A DNA stretch of 64,000 nucleotides from Magnetospirillum moscoviense. GTDB lineage: Bacteria; Pseudomonadota; Alphaproteobacteria; Rhodospirillales; Magnetospirillaceae. The first letter of the stretch is position 1, and each line of letters begins with the position of its first letter. Below are positions 492 to 61,083 of the stretch, piece by piece. The stretch spans positions 1 through 64,000 of the forward strand of contig NZ_LWQU01000130.1 in the NCBI RefSeq assembly GCF_001650635.1, in the 5' to 3' direction. Made by a program: the position numbers and the translations under genes. Under the pieces are notes generated by a model. It saw only the letters and a list, made by a program, of their open reading frames with translations, was not told the origin of the DNA and ran no database searches.

Positions 492-917
492 TCAGGCCAA
501 GGCCAGGACACTCGACACCGCCATCGCCAACAGCAGCGGCACCAAGATCAGCAGCGGCAATCCGCCTGGCCGGCGGAGCAGCGGGACGGCCACCACCAGC
601 CCCCACGCCACCAGCACCAGCGTCACCACGACGGCGAATTCGCCCGGCCCGTGCGGGCGGAACAGCGGGAAGCCCCAGCGGGTTTCAACGAAGACGCCAG
701 AGGGGTTGAACAGCGCCGCCAAGCTGCCGGCCAGGGCCAGGGCATAGGGGCGGCTGACGGCGCAGCCGCAGCCGCCACCAACCCGGGCGGCGGCATGGAT
801 GAACATGGCGGCAGCCAGCGGCCGCAGGCCGACGGCGATCAGACCGACCGGTTCAGGGAAGATCGGCGCGACCAAGGCCGCCACCACCAGGACGGCGCAA
901 GCCCCCAGCCCGATCAC
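492..917 (-). CDS. small hypothetical membrane protein
   Basis: A 141-residue protein starting with GTG. It is strongly hydrophobic, with roughly four membrane segments: residues 2-20, 24-45, 58-72 and a long C-terminal pair around 92-140 separated by a short basic turn (LLRRPGG). The start overlaps the stop of the upstream MCP gene (GTG and TGA share bases 914-917), so it is probably translated by coupling as the last gene of the STAS-PAS-MCP operon. I do not recognise the family. The position suggests a membrane partner of the chemoreceptor, which is inference only. Confidence 0.6.
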
Positions 918-2224
918 CGCACTTTCTGCAGGTATTGCTCGACCCGGCCGCTCAAGGATTGCACCACCTCGCTCAGCAGGTTGGCACTCCAGATCACGCG
1001 GATGGTGCCGCCGCAGGCCTGGGCCGACACCTGCGACACCACCGCCACCGAGTGCGACACCTCTTCCGCCTTTTGCGCCACGTCCTCGATGTTGGCCGAG
1101 ATGTCGCGCGTTGCCGCTTCCTGCTTCTGCACCGCCTGGGCGATGGTCGCGGTGATCTCGTCCATCTGGCGGATGGTGCCGACGATCTCGTCGATGGCCG
1201 ACACCGCCTCGCGCGCCGCGCTCTGGATGGCGCCGACCTGACTGGTGATGTCCTCGGTGGCCCGGGCCGTCTGGTTGGCCAGGCTTTTCACCTCGTGCGC
1301 CACCACCGCAAAGCCCTTGCCGGCTTCGCCCGCGCGTGCTGCCTCGATGGTCGCATTCAGGGCCAGCAGGTTGGTCTGGCTGGCGATCTCGCTGATCAAC
1401 TGGACCACCGTGCCGATCTTCGTGACCGCCTGGGCCAGGCCGTTAACCCGCTGCGAGGTCGAGGAAATATTGGCCACCGCCTCGTGGGCGACCGAGCTGG
1501 ACAGCGTCACCTGCTGCGAGATTTCGTTGATGGCTTCGGCCAGTTGGCGGGTCACTTCCGACACCGCCTGGGCGCTTTCCGAGGTCGCCTGGGCGGCGTC
1601 GCCGACATCGATCGAGCGCGAGCCGGCCCGTTCCGACCGTTGGGCCATCTGGTCGGCGGTCTTGGCGATGCCGTCGGTCGACTTGGCGACCTGGCTGACC
1701 ATCGCCTTGACCGCTTCCTCGAAGTCGGCGGTTTCCTTGCCGCGTTCCTCCATGTCGCCCAGCACCTTGTTGATCAGGCGGGCGAAGGTCAGGAAGTCGC
1801 CGCGCAGCCCCTCTTCCGGGATGATGCGGAAATATTCCTTGCGGCCGGCCCGGGCCATGGCGGCGCCGGTATCCTTGGCGAATTCCTCGGACAGGTCCAA
1901 CAAGCGGTTGACGCCGTGCAGCAACCGGCCCAGATCGTCGTCGCGGCCGATACGCAGGATGCGGGCGTTGAGGTCGCCGGCCGAGGCCGCCATCACCACA
2001 TCGGCCGAACGGCGGATCAGCTCACGCTCGGTCGCGCTCTGCCCGCCGCCACCGCCGGCCAGCCCGATCGCCGCCAGGGCGGCCCCCGCCATCGCCAGCA
2101 GCAGCACCCCCAGGGCGACACCATCCAGCCCGCTTTTCACCGCCAGCGCCAAAGCGGCCGCCGCCAGAAGGACCAAGCCGATCCAGCCCCACAGGGCCTT
2201 GCCGCCGGAAGTTGGGCTCGACAT
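914..2224 (-). CDS. methyl-accepting chemotaxis protein without a periplasmic sensor domain
   Basis: A 436-residue chemoreceptor. The start at 2224 is chosen because GGAGG lies six bases upstream; a longer frame to 2290 would run into the repeat. Two adjacent membrane segments (about residues 9-30 and 34-56) are separated by only a few residues, so there is no ligand-binding domain outside the cell. A HAMP-like linker follows (about 70-140), then a classic MCP signalling domain with the hairpin tip around [19 protein letters not shown]. Such receptors usually take input from a cytoplasmic partner. The upstream Aer-type PAS gene at 2353-2883 is the obvious candidate, giving a split energy/redox taxis receptor (inference). 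Confidence 0.9.
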
Positions 2225-2236
2225 CGGTGCCTCCTC

Positions 2237-2355
2237 GTGTGGTGTTTCTGAAATTCGCATGGCAATTCGAATTGCAGAATCACCACACAATTCAACAAAT
2301 GAGTGGCCTGCTTATCCCCGGAATTCGCTATGCGAATTTCGGGGGCAGGACACTA
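2237..2355 (-). repeat. 120-bp two-hairpin dispersed element, copy 1
   Basis: Read on the minus strand this is about 80% identical by eye to 59884-60003. It begins TAGTGTCCTGC, which pairs with GCAGGCCACT further in. A second hairpin starts TTGTGTGGTGATTC and closes with a matching CACCACAC end. Its first three bases, TAG at 2355-2353, are the stop codon of the PAS gene, and its far end abuts the ribosome-binding site of the MCP gene, so it fills the whole gap between two operon genes. Confidence 0.85.
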
Positions 2356-2883
2356 CCGACAAATAGCGAAAATCAGCTGGTCGTAACTGGAAAATCCCAA
2401 CTGGCCGACCGTGGCCTTCAGGGCGGCATAGGATTGCTCCAGGCCGGCCTTGCGATCGGGATTGGATTTTTCGATTTCCAGCAACTGGGCGTAAAGCGGC
2501 TTGACGGTGTCGACCGCCGATTGCTTGGGCACCCGCCGATTGGAATGATAGCCGACGATGGCGCCGTCGGGGCCGAAATTGGGGGTGACGTGGGCGAACA
2601 CCCAATATTCGTCGCCGTTCTTGGCGCGGTTCAGCACATAGGCAAAGATTTCGTCGCCCAGCTCGATCACGTCCCACAGCAGGCGGAACACGCAGCGCGG
2701 CATGGCCGGATGACGCAGGATCGAATGGGGGGCGCCCAGCAACTCGTCCTCGGAATAGCCGCTCATGGCGATGAAGACGTCGTTGGCATAGGTGATCTTG
2801 CCGGTCCGGTCGGTCTTCGACACGATGATCTCGTCGGGGCGGAATGACCGCTCCTTGCCGGTCAGAAACAGATCGGCCGCCAT
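2353..2883 (-). CDS. Aer-type PAS domain protein
   Basis: A 176-residue soluble protein consisting mainly of one PAS domain (about residues 15-125). Conserved blocks include GKITYANDVFIAMSGYSEDEL, trimmed here to its core SGYSEDELLG, and HSILRHPAMP, typical of the PAS of aerotaxis receptor Aer, which binds FAD. Residues 130-176 are helical. AGGAG stands seven bases before the ATG. It follows the STAS gene by 24 bases and precedes a membrane MCP lacking its own sensor, so it is probably the sensory half of a two-protein redox receptor (inference). Its stop codon TAG is the first three bases of the 120-bp repeat, so the original C-terminus may have been changed by the insertion. Confidence 0.85.
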   Translation of the reverse strand: MAADLFLTGKERSFRPDEIIVSKTDRTGKITYANDVFIAMSGYSEDELLGAPHSILRHPAMPRCVFRLLWDVIELGDEIFAYVLNRAKNGDEYWVFAHVTPNFGPDGAIVGYHSNRRVPKQSAVDTVKPLYAQLLEIEKSNPDRKAGLEQSYAALKATVGQLGFSSYDQLIFAICR

Positions 2884-58135: not shown

Positions 58136-58279
58136 ATGTTCAACCCTGGGGGATCGGTGGACAAGGCGATTGATGGCGCTCTGCCCTGGATTTTCGCCGC
58201 ATGGGCGGTCGTGACACTGGGAACCCTGGCGGGCCTGGGGTATCGCTCGGCCCTGGCTGCAATCCTATGCGCCGCCTGA
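58136..58279 (+). CDS. possible 47-residue membrane ORF
   Basis: A short frame MFNPGGSVDKAIDGALPW with a hydrophobic stretch (about residues 17-45) and a stop at 58277-58279. It overlaps the GGDEF start by 13 bases. No ribosome-binding site is evident. It may be a small coupled membrane protein or chance. Confidence 0.25.
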   Translation: MFNPGGSVDKAIDGALPWIFAAWAVVTLGTLAGLGYRSALAAILCAA

Positions 58280-59886
58280 TCCATCCCTTCCGCCTGGAAG
58301 CCACGTACGACGATCGCCTGCTGCCGTATCGCCAGCAGGCCGACCGCATCATGCTGGGCATGTGCGTGTTCCTGTTGGCCGTCTGCGCGGCGATCGCACC
58401 CTATAACCAAACCTGGGGATCGTGGCTGTTGATCGGCGTGCCGACGCTGCTTGTCGGGGGATTATTGACCTGGCGGGCGGCGGGCAGCCTGCTGACCCGG
58501 CTGTTCATGGCCTGCGCCTTCATGGCCTTTACAGGGCTGATCATCCACCAGACCGGCGGCGACATCGAAGCCCATTTCTCGGCTTTCGGCCTGATCGGCG
58601 TGCTTCTCTACTACCGGGACTGGCGCACGGTGGCGGCGGCGACGGTATTCATCTATTTCCACCATCTTCTGGTCGGGCTGGCGCAAAGCCTTGGAGCGCC
58701 GGTGTTCGTGTTCGACACCCAAGCCTTCTGGTCCACCTTCGCGCTGCACGTCGCCTATTTCCTGCCCTTCGTGGCGATGATGGGCTACCTGTCGATTGCC
58801 CTGCGGCGCGAGGGATACGAGAACCGGCTGGTCATTGAGATGGCCCAGAAGATCGCGGCCGGAGACCTGGCCCACCAGGTCGCGGTCGAGGACGGCTCGG
58901 TGGTGACACACGGGCTGCTGCGGGCGGTGCGCATCATGCACGACCGCATCCTAGACATTCTGGCCTCGATTCCCACCCCCACCATGGTGGTGCGCCTGGA
59001 CAGCGAGCGGGTCGTCAACATCAATGCTGCCTGGCTTCGCACCTTCGGCACCGCCGATGCCAGGCCGGAGGGAACCATCGGCGCGGCCGTCCGGGATTTG
59101 GGGATCTGGGAACGGGCCGGCGACTGGGAGAGGGTGCGCGATGCCGCTTCCAACGCGCCGGTCTCGCTGGTCTTTCTCGCCCGGGCGCTGGCGGACCAGG
59201 AGTGCCACCGGCAGGTCGAAGTGTCCACCATCCTCTACGAGGCCTCGGAAATCCGGCTTCTGATCGTCGTCGCCGAGGACGTCACCCTGCGCCGCAAGGC
59301 CGAGCAGCGGATGCGTGACCTCGCCTATCGCGACATGCTGACCGGGCTTGCCAACCGTGCCGCCCTGCACGACTCGCTGGCGGTGGCACTGGATGGCCTG
59401 CACCGGCACGACCGCCCGTTCACCCTGATCTTGCTGGATCTGGACGGCTTCAAGCCGGTCAATGACACCTACGGACATGACGCGGGCGACGAGGTGCTGG
59501 TCATTATCGCCGACCGGCTGCAGCGCCTGTTCCGCAGCAATGACGTGGTCGCCCGCCTGGGCGGTGACGAGTTCGTCGCGATTCTGACCGAGGACGGTGA
59601 CCTCGCCCACGCCCAGGTCGTCGCAGAACGCGTCATCGAGGCCATCGAACGCCCCATCGCCTTGCGCACCGCTAACACGGTGACGATCTCAGCCAGCGTG
59701 GGGATCGCCATTGCCGACACCGCCGCGGCGCCGGGCGACGCGGACGCCCTGCTGAAGCAGGCCGACCTCGCCGTCTATGAAGCCAAGCGACGCGGCAAGG
59801 GCTGTGCGGTCATTCATGACCCGAAGATCGCCGATGGCTGGCGGGCGCACCAGGGGGCTCTGGAAGTCCGGCCATCGGTGAACTAG
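58267..59886 (+). CDS. membrane diguanylate cyclase with PAS and GGDEF domains
   Basis: About 539 residues from ATG 58267; the frame is open to 58201. Five or six membrane segments (about 25-180) include a GGDIEAHFSAFG/LLYYRDWR segment and a following HH pair, a pattern known from membrane sensors fused to MCP and GGDEF outputs. A PAS-like region (about 230-345) and a GGDEF domain follow, with GGDEF intact and an RSND inhibitory site, so it should make c-di-GMP. The TAG stop is the first three bases of the 120-bp element. Flanking relics suggest it arrived or was rearranged with mobile DNA. Confidence 0.88.
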   Translation: MRRLIHPFRLEATYDDRLLPYRQQADRIMLGMCVFLLAVCAAIAPYNQTWGSWLLIGVPTLLVGGLLTWRAAGSLLTRLFMACAFMAFTGLIIHQTGGDIEAHFSAFGLIGVLLYYRDWRTVAAATVFIYFHHLLVGLAQSLGAPVFVFDTQAFWSTFALHVAYFLPFVAMMGYLSIALRREGYENRLVIEMAQKIAAGDLAHQVAVEDGSVVTHGLLRAVRIMHDRILDILASIPTPTMVVRLDSERVVNINAAWLRTFGTADARPEGTIGAAVRDLGIWERAGDWERVRDAASNAPVSLVFLARALADQECHRQVEVSTILYEASEIRLLIVVAEDVTLRRKAEQRMRDLAYRDMLTGLANRAALHDSLAVALDGLHRHDRPFTLILLDLDGFKPVNDTYGHDAGDEVLVIIADRLQRLFRSNDVVARLGGDEFVAILTEDGDLAHAQVVAERVIEAIERPIALRTANTVTISASVGIAIADTAAAPGDADALLKQADLAVYEAKRRGKGCAVIHDPKIADGWRAHQGALEVRPSVN

Positions 59887-60003
59887 TGTCCTGCCCCAGA
59901 AATTCGCAAGTGAATTTCTGGGATGAGCAGGCCACTAATCTGTTGAATTGTGTGGTGATTCCGATGTCCGCATTTTGATGCGAACTTCGGAATCACCACA
60001 CTA
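59884..60003 (+). repeat. 120-bp two-hairpin dispersed element, copy 2
   Basis: It begins TAGTGTCCTGC and ends CACCACACTA. The first half folds with GCAGGCCACTA (near 59927-59937), with an inner AGAAATTC / GAATTTCT stem. The second half is GTGTGGTGATTCCGA paired exactly with TCGGAATCACCACAC, with an inner CGCAT/ATGCG stem. TA at both ends suggests a TA target duplication. Its TAG is the GGDEF gene's stop. Copy 1 is at 2237-2355, inverted. Confidence 0.85.
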
Positions 60004-60033
60004 GGGCGCACTCAATTAAGGGATTCCCAGTGA

Positions 60034-60273
60034 GCCCGCGACTGGCTTGCCGAACGCGGCTGCGAAGCCGTTATCCCGCCAAACCCGACACGGCAGAATC
60101 CCCACGCCTACGACCGCATCGTCTACGGCAGACGTAACTTGGTCGAACGCATGTTCTGCCGTCTGAAGGACTTCCGAAGGATCGCCACCGGTTACGACAA
60201 ACGCGCGGACACGTTCCTCTCGGCCGTCTTCCGCGTCGTTGCACGCGTATGGTGGCTCAATCGCGTCCGGACC
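60034..60273 (+). pseudogene. IS5-family transposase 3-prime relic
   Basis: Frame reads RDWLAERGCEAVIPPNP, then YDRIVYGRRNLVERMFCRLK and FRRIATGYDKRADTFLSAV. This is the C-terminal part of an IS5-type transposase, including the E of the DDE triad in the NLVERMFCRLK block. An in-frame TGA at 60031 and the absence of the N-terminal half show it is a relic. It abuts the Usp gene end and accounts for the sequence between 60004 and 60273. Confidence 0.85.
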
Positions 60274-61083
60274 TTAATGGCTCATCAACACCGGCAGGGT
60301 CATGTGCTTGAGGATGTGGCGGGTGCCGCCGCCCTTGAAGAAGGGCAAGCCCTCGCCGCTCAGCGCGCCCATCACCAACAGATCGGCGCCCTGGTCGCAG
60401 GCCCGGGACAGCAGCAGGTCCATCACCCCGATATCGTCGCCGGCCAGCACCTCGCGGGTCACCTTGGCGCCGTGGCGGGCCAGATGGTCGGTGATGGACA
60501 AGGGCGGCAGGCCGGCCGCCGGTACCGCCGCCTCGCCCCGGCGCACCGACACCACCTCGACCACATCGGCACCTTCCAGCAGGGCCATCGCATCATTCAA
60601 GGCCCGGGCCGCCTCGCGGCCGCCGTTCCATGCCACCAGCGCATTCGAGCCGATGGTCGGATAGTCGCCCACCGACGGCAGGATCAGAACCGGCCGACCC
60701 GATTGCACCACCACCTGCTCGATCAATTGCTCGGGCGCGTTCTTGCCGTCGTGATGCTGGCCCAGGATGGTGAGGTCGTGGAAACGGGCGCATACGGCGG
60801 TCTCGGCCAGAACGTGCGACGGTTCGCCATGGGCCAGCCGCCACCAGCGGCTGTCCAGGCCCGATCCAGCCAGGCACTCGGCGAACTGACGCTCGGACTG
60901 GGCGGCCGCCGCCTCGAAGGCATCGGAGCCGCGATGGGCCACCATCGCCAGTCCCTGATGCTCGAGCCGGGCGAACAGGCCGGTCAGACGGCCGCCGAAC
61001 CGCTTGGTCAGCACCATCGCCGCCTTGATGCGCAAGGAATCGCGCTCGCCGCCGTCCAGATGGACCAGGATGTCCTTGAACAT
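60274..61083 (-). CDS. universal stress protein family (UspA), tandem domain
   Basis: A 269-residue protein with two Usp domains in tandem. Domain 1 starts MFKDILVHLDGG (residues 1-12); domain 2 (about 150-269) has ALVAWNGGREAARAL and the ATP-motif-like LLVMGALSGEGLPFFKGGGTRHIL, shown as MGALSGEG. GGAGAA precedes the ATG. It is just downstream of livM, separated by 20 bases. The C-terminus ends at TAA adjoining the transposase relic. Confidence 0.9.
   Translation of the reverse strand: MFKDILVHLDGGERDSLRIKAAMVLTKRFGGRLTGLFARLEHQGLAMVAHRGSDAFEAAAAQSERQFAECLAGSGLDSRWWRLAHGEPSHVLAETAVCARFHDLTILGQHHDGKNAPEQLIEQVVVQSGRPVLILPSVGDYPTIGSNALVAWNGGREAARALNDAMALLEGADVVEVVSVRRGEAAVPAAGLPPLSITDHLARHGAKVTREVLAGDDIGVMDLLLSRACDQGADLLVMGALSGEGLPFFKGGGTRHILKHMTLPVLMSH

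Follow-up and report, generated by a model that had tools for sequence, protein, structure and literature searches.

RUP of pneumococcus is presented, in the section of PMC2229807 that deals with it, as a MITE linked to IS630-Spn1; it is about 110 bp long and gene-less, has TA in its target, and shares its ends with an IS630. CIR1–CIR4 (Chen and Shapiro, 2003), to the extent that PMC2229807 describes them, consist of two inverted-repeat arms and a linker with TA termini, carry GANTC at or in the terminal loop, and occupy intergenic positions in alphaproteobacteria; the mechanism of their mobility is said in that description to need more information. MITEPsy1 of Pseudomonas syringae appears in the relevant part of PMC3189936 as a 100-bp MITE that duplicates CTAG or YTAA and is linked to the IS5-type ISPsy2.

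Here, we analyze a repeat present in two copies in a window of 64,000 nucleotides from Magnetospirillum moscoviense (contig NZ_LWQU01000130.1, positions 1 to 64,000). It resembles RUP in all the listed features; unlike RUP, it prefers CTAG, has two separate arms, and has no helper found in the host assembly. Compared by description, it shares with CIR1–CIR4 the two arms with a linker, the TA termini, GANTC, and the intergenic location in alphaproteobacteria, but its GANTC is in the stem of the second hairpin. With MITEPsy1, it shares the CTAG target but not the ends. The IS630 elements ending in TAGTGTCCTG, found on the Rhodococcus plasmid NZ_CP054208.1 and in genomes G128, G226, and G038, are similar to it in their ends and in the CTAG target, and differ in carrying a transposase, in their length of about 1.2–1.4 kb, and in that no hairpins were seen in those IS ends that were read. 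Within the open-licence papers searched, the element was not found described. It represents a new family of CTAG-preferring IS630-type MITEs with a CIR-like plan, that is, a new case of a kind already known. Very probably, it is a non-autonomous IS630-family MITE of about 116 bp, which is moved in trans by an IS630-type DDE transposase and integrates at CTAG with duplication of TA.

Copies in the window and adjoining genes

A preliminary description, made from the window alone, had placed the copies at positions 2237–2355 (minus strand) and 59884–60003 (plus strand), and both are indeed present there (Table 1); they are 83% identical to each other. As had been claimed, each copy opens with the TAG that stops the preceding gene, namely the PAS gene for copy 1 (a 176-aa ORF ended by TAG at 2355–2353, minus strand) and the GGDEF gene for copy 2 (561 aa). 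The next gene after copy 1 on the minus strand encodes an MCP, again as described. The reported TA...TA ends hold for copy 2, with the layout TA-GTGTCC...CACAC-TA, but not for copy 1, whose far (H2-side) end reads CACAC-GA-G, the TA being lost there.

Right after copy 2, at window positions 60004–60280 (plus strand), there is a transposase remnant (PF13586 DDE_Tnp_1_2, E 1.3e-9), which seems to be internally deleted, since the stretches that adjoin here sit about 570 bp apart in genome G006.

Table 1. Coordinates of the two copies, their hairpins (H1, H2), and the adjoining genes in the window
Feature	Positions	Strand	Remarks
Copy 2 of the element (locus L002)	59884..60003	+	One duplicated TA on each side; CTAG on both flanks; covariance-model score 143 bits
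H1 of copy 2	59884..59937	+	Left end GTGTCCTGCCCC, 4-nt bulge, 3' arm GCAGGCCAC; fold and covariation
H2 of copy 2	59950..60001	+	GTGTGGTGATTCC ... GGAATCACCACAC; GANTC site in each arm
TAG stop of the GGDEF gene	59884..59886	+	Made up of the target TA and the element's first G
GGDEF (diguanylate cyclase) gene, upstream of copy 2	58201..59886	+	Pfam PF00990, E 6e-42
Copy 1 of the element	2235..2355	-	GTAG on the H1 side and CGAG on the H2 side where CTAG is expected
H1 of copy 1	2302..2355	-	Fold
H2 of copy 1	2237..2288	-	Fold
PAS-domain gene	2353..2883	-	Ends in the TAG at the H1 end of copy 1; Pfam PF08447, E 9.9e-11; ORF
MCP (chemotaxis receptor) gene	914..2224	-	Start 12 bases past copy 1; Pfam PF00015; gene calls

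Copy number and distribution

The host assembly (G000, a draft of 4.16 Mb in 207 contigs) yields 65 matching pieces by BLAST. After the loci had been inspected, and with a covariance model built from 38 copies and full-length copies defined as those scoring at least 90 bits, it contains 23 full-length copies, besides a tandemly duplicated H1 and a number of copies that are truncated or reduced to one hairpin. Copy 2 has one identical partner over 120 bp in this assembly, and two other copies are 99% identical to it; the multiplicity and the identical partner place the pattern beyond chance.

BLAST matches are seen in six of 12 congeners (7 of 13 genomes of the genus with the host). Among 297 genomes of the order, 12 contain the exact left end CTAGTGTCCTGCCC, at 38 places, compared to six for the reversed control. 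Of 289 genomes of the class, nine (host counted) have matches to the full model, where weak-scoring ones may be chance palindromes. Genome G351 has at least 12 matches to the full model, four of which were read. The distribution over the order and the class is hence patchy. On an Acidiphilium plasmid there is a copy whose H1 is of the same type and whose H2 differs. In the host, hairpin 1 and a part of the linker are duplicated in tandem at L014/L018 (G000:C32:35481-35616); in a congener, H1 and the linker of L035 (G003:C13:305616) are attached to another second hairpin (AGGGTTGTTCTG), which hints at an exchange of the second arm.

Structure of the element

The unit of the element is GTGTCC…CACAC between the duplicated TAs, 116–122 bp with the TAs included, with no coding capacity. 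Folding confirms the two adjacent hairpins per copy that had been described: for both copies and both strands, the z-scores of fold stability are -8.0 to -10.8 relative to dinucleotide shuffles, and 0 of 200 shuffles are as stable. The feet of H1 are conserved (GTGTCCTGC with GCAGG-CCAC), mostly with a 4-nt bulge, and its stem varies with compensation; H2 is more variable among copies than H1. Pairing is retained in 96.1% of the alignment cells, and both partners have changed in 13 of 26 pairs, a level that none of 500 shuffles reaches. In copy L005, one arm of H1 has turned into the complement of the other arm, so arm-to-arm conversion could also yield covariation; since it gives the same signal, covariation was rejected as proof of an RNA function. 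The window has no Rfam match at gathering scores.

At least two GANTC sites are present in 28 of 36 copies (background, 854 sites in 464 kb); GATTC and GAATC sit in the stem arms of H2. In the four copies of G351 that were read, H2 itself has CTAG at both borders, and in the match of genome G567 the same is seen for H1. Either end of the unit is a long palindrome in its own right. The unit may have originated by fusion of two palindromic mini-elements, once separate, joined by a conserved linker, and now moving together.

Target site

Flanking bases were counted in 36 distinct copies, with identical copies merged and copy 2 represented by L001. The base preceding the left TA is C in 33 of 36 copies and the base following the right TA is G in 32 of 36, hence the target is CTAG. 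The complete CTA is retained at the left end in 26 copies and TAG at the right end in 19, with both in 17. Of the TA itself, T and A are retained in 29 and 31 copies at the left, and in 28 and 28 at the right; all aligned copies share the G that opens the element and the C that closes it. In the set of 44 copies used for the analysis of stop codons (see below), 29 retain an intact CTAG beside H1 and 21 beside H2; 19 retain it at both ends. Where the element ends are altered, several copies read CTGG or CCAG; CTCG, CGAG, CCGG, or CAAG is seen in others.

In a 464-kb sample of the host genome, CTAG makes up 95 of 5746 TA sites. The word is about 16-fold below the expectation from base composition (92 non-element occurrences vs. 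1484).

A clean empty site is available for one locus (n = 1), from another genus of the host's family. A copy is present in genome G161 and missing at the same place in G104, the flanks being 91% and 90% identical; in G104, the end of the left match and the start of the right match share the same four bases, so that the unfilled locus has a single CTAG. Two convergent gene calls of G104 both stop on this CTAG and overlap exactly there; at the filled site of G161, one stop lies on each flanking CTAG, and each gene has its own TAG. The single empty site alone fits duplication of either TA or CTAG; duplication of TA is favored by the constancy of the inner G and C, compared to the variable TA. 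Stem-loop replacement as in IS1272, in the form outlined in a part of PMC5678879, was rejected, as the empty site shows an insertion at CTAG and no replaced stem-loop.

Within the genus, the comparison of flanks covered loci L001–L010 of 22, L010 partially, and the non-coding flanks of the host loci were mostly too diverged, with nothing firm for L003 and L004. At L006, the neighboring gene stops at the same codon in all six relatives fetched, where the element is absent; read by eye, these stops are TAG in four, TAA in one, and TGA in one. At L010, the gene ends at the same codon in one of three relatives (G010, TGA), the two others not aligning there; at L005, the genes of the relatives end differently; at L008, the flanks align in element-free relatives, too loosely for the target to be read.

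IS630 elements with similar ends

Through 25 bases matching the Acidiphilium copy, an IS630 was located on the Rhodococcus plasmid NZ_CP054208.1; its ends, both with TAGTGTCCTG and both in CTAG, show agreement at 24 of 30 positions. The same arrangement is seen in IS630 elements of G226 (same family as the host) and G038 (same order), while an IS630 of G128 (same family) has TAGTGTCCTG at one end and, as judged by eye, a one-base variant at the other. Transposases of the IS with these ends belong to DDE_3/IS630; homologues at E ≤ 1e-20 are present in 37 of the 297 order-level genomes, and further homologues have related ends, e.g., TAGTGCACTG or TAGTGGATTG. The transposase frame stops at the terminus TAG in three of seven IS examined (Rhodococcus, G226, and G038). 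In such IS630 elements (L247, L253, and L254), the stop codon of the transposase is the terminus TAG, which partly belongs to target DNA.

The strongest similarity to the element is shown by the end of the G128 IS630, which matches the left end in 20/24 positions (copy 2) and 21/24 (copy 1), and the right end in 21/24 (copy 2) and 20/24 (copy 1). Of the same 24 positions, the ends of the other IS match 13–17 (G226), 16 (G038), and 14–19 (Rhodococcus); IS630 ends of the G002 and G005 types match 8–11 (9–11 for the commonest IS630 of G002). In the control, 448 YTAG-anchored 24-mers of the sample score at most 14 against the left end, besides single scores of 18, 22, and 24, which are taken to be element ends.

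In the 207-contig draft of the host, no IS630 transposase of this group is found at E ≤ 1e-20; with the G226 transposase as the query, only a 49-aa fragment is seen in G000 and a 51-aa fragment in G104, and nothing in G010, G005, G161, G219, G202, and G351. The copies in the host are nearly identical and apparently recent, despite the helper being missing from the assembly. All 27 places of CTAGTGTSSTG in G000 are known copies of the element or its degenerate copy on C22, and therefore no autonomous element with exactly these ends is seen there. Homologues in the genus (E ≤ 1e-20) are present in G002, G007, and G012, the latter two having no match to the element. Two further candidates were considered and rejected. 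The IS of G002 (33 DDE_3 matches) has TAGAGCGG at the left end in 12 of the 13 loci examined and nearly alike right ends in all 13, and with ends of this type it is not the helper. Two DDE_3 genes of the host (L047 and L048) have no CTAGTG, TTAGTG, CTAGTC, or TTAGTC in the fetched loci. On the whole, the ends, the CTAG target, and the one empty site support the TA-targeting MITE of the IS630 type that had been suggested.

Association with stop codons

Stop codons were counted for 44 unique copies fetched, scoring at least 90 bits, which are a sample of the copies in the respective genomes; repeats of one copy in a second locus were left out, as were single-hairpin or truncated copies (including the one on C22, which is at a stop), and four copies of G351 with no end on a called stop (L299, L307, L311, and L313) are also outside this set. 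Genes were called by a hexamer caller trained on 464 kb of G000 (400 genes, 90% coding), which is less reliable in other genomes. The covariance-model set superseded copy finding by regular expressions (61 rows, 19 at stops, 3 double), where many hits were spurious.

An end TAG coincides with a called stop in 18 of 44 full copies: in 9 of 23 in the host, 4 of 9 in G010, 2 of 3 in G005, and in a single copy from each of G150, G161, and G202; every one of the six remaining genomes has one copy, not at a stop. Four copies (L005, L037, L167, and L221) lie at double stops of convergent genes, L037 being scored so despite an extra G between its TAG and the element. Among the non-genic CTAGs of the host sample (at stops or outside genes), 17 of 60 are stops and none is double. 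The difference between all copies and this background is not significant (p = 0.21; p = 0.43 for the host alone). By the criterion set in the preliminary description (most copies away from stops), the proposed link would fall, as 26 of 44 copies lie off called stops; some additional link in fresh copies may still exist, in view of the copies with intact ends considered below.

Beyond stops, one copy of 44 overlaps a gene (L025, where the gene runs a few bases into the element), whereas 32 of 92 non-element CTAGs are within called genes (p = 9e-6). Because the element carries stops, any gene that it had broken would be seen as an overlap of this sort.

Alternative explanations

We consider it unlikely that the element is a functional stop-codon and 3'-end module, favored at stops because its TAG and hairpins would terminate translation, shield the 3' ends of mRNAs, or serve as insulators between convergent genes. 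Stable and covarying hairpins would agree with such a role, as would the share at stops among copies intact at both ends, 15 of 23, compared to 3 of the 21 others and to the background given above (p = 0.003); an excess is also seen for copies with at least one intact end (18 of 34, p = 0.026) and for double stops (p = 0.03). However, these subset and double-stop tests are post hoc and compare copies from several genomes to a background from the host only, there is no excess over all copies, and the intact TAGs may be merely those retained as stops. Nor did a scan around copy 2 reveal a terminator-like site. The function of a mobile stop codon, raised in the preliminary description, is not supported: the TAG belongs to the target CTAG, restored when TA is duplicated, and at the clean empty site both stops pre-exist on one CTAG. 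The excess among intact copies, observed post hoc, runs against an explanation by the target only; it may reflect intact TAGs kept where they are needed as stops, fresh copies preferring stop sites, or a host background that does not fit other genomes. The coincidence with stop codons is real, and target choice explains its possibility and most of its frequency.

The bulged hairpins, two per copy, might also be read as those of a REP/RAYT-type element recognized as single strands by a Y1 (HUH) transposase, which seems very improbable here. Y1_Tnp genes of about 240 aa are present in G000 and in G010, which are the two genomes of the genus with the most element matches, and fragments in G007, that is, in 3 of 13 genomes; a weak remnant of the element (30 bits) lies about 2.4 kb from the Y1 gene of G010. 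Yet the loci of the five Y1 hits (L320–L324) have no element match and the copies do not flank Y1 genes, while G005, G002, G003, G004, and G006 have matches without Y1, and G007 has Y1 fragments without matches. Neither a CTAG on each side nor ends like those of IS630 would be expected in a RAYT element. The Y1 genes are located at G000:C182:5704-6030 and C124:14869-15195 (L321 and L323, one with an internal TGA) and at G010:C38:45243-45569 (L320). Less remote, though still doubtful, is the view that the element belongs to the CIR repeats known from Caulobacter and Brucella and that its functional core is the GANTC methylation site. It is suggested by the same plan (about 110 bp, two arms and a linker, TA termini, GANTC, intergenic location in alphaproteobacteria), as far as the description in PMC2229807 goes, and by the frequency of copies with two or more GANTC sites; the position of GANTC in the H2 stem arms instead of the terminal loop speaks against it. 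Such membership is compatible with the element being an IS630-family MITE.

Discussion

As an IS630-family MITE, the element would rely on a DDE transposase of the IS630 type, which would act in trans at the two outer ends, GTGTCCTG and GTGTGGTG. Insertion would occur at CTAG with duplication of the central TA, to give C-TA-G ... C-TA-G; as the element starts with G at both ends, a TAG stop would be rebuilt on either strand, even at a CTAG common to two convergent genes. Insertions in genes, nearly missing among the copies, were presumably removed by selection; with CTAG being rare as well, stops and intergenic CTAGs would be the sites left to be observed.

A broader scenario is offered tentatively, and may well be wrong. 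An IS630 lineage present in actinobacteria and alphaproteobacteria might have evolved CTAG as a "safe-harbour" target, a word that has almost vanished from genes yet persists at TAG stops. Ends starting with G would rebuild stops on either strand, and some autonomous members would use the rebuilt TAG for their own transposase. The MITE would then separate stop-overlapping genes harmlessly, fresh copies would favor CTAGs at stops, and the hairpins would be kept by structural selection.

The coincidence of the repeat with stop codons is reduced to a simple rule, comprising CTAG targeting, stop restoration, and the loss of genic insertions. A plausible mobilizer can be named for repeats with the two-arm plan, the mobility of CIR having been described as unresolved. 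Finally, the family provides a natural case in which a transposon has separated two overlapping convergent genes with both stops kept, useful for studies of 3'-end evolution and CTAG avoidance.
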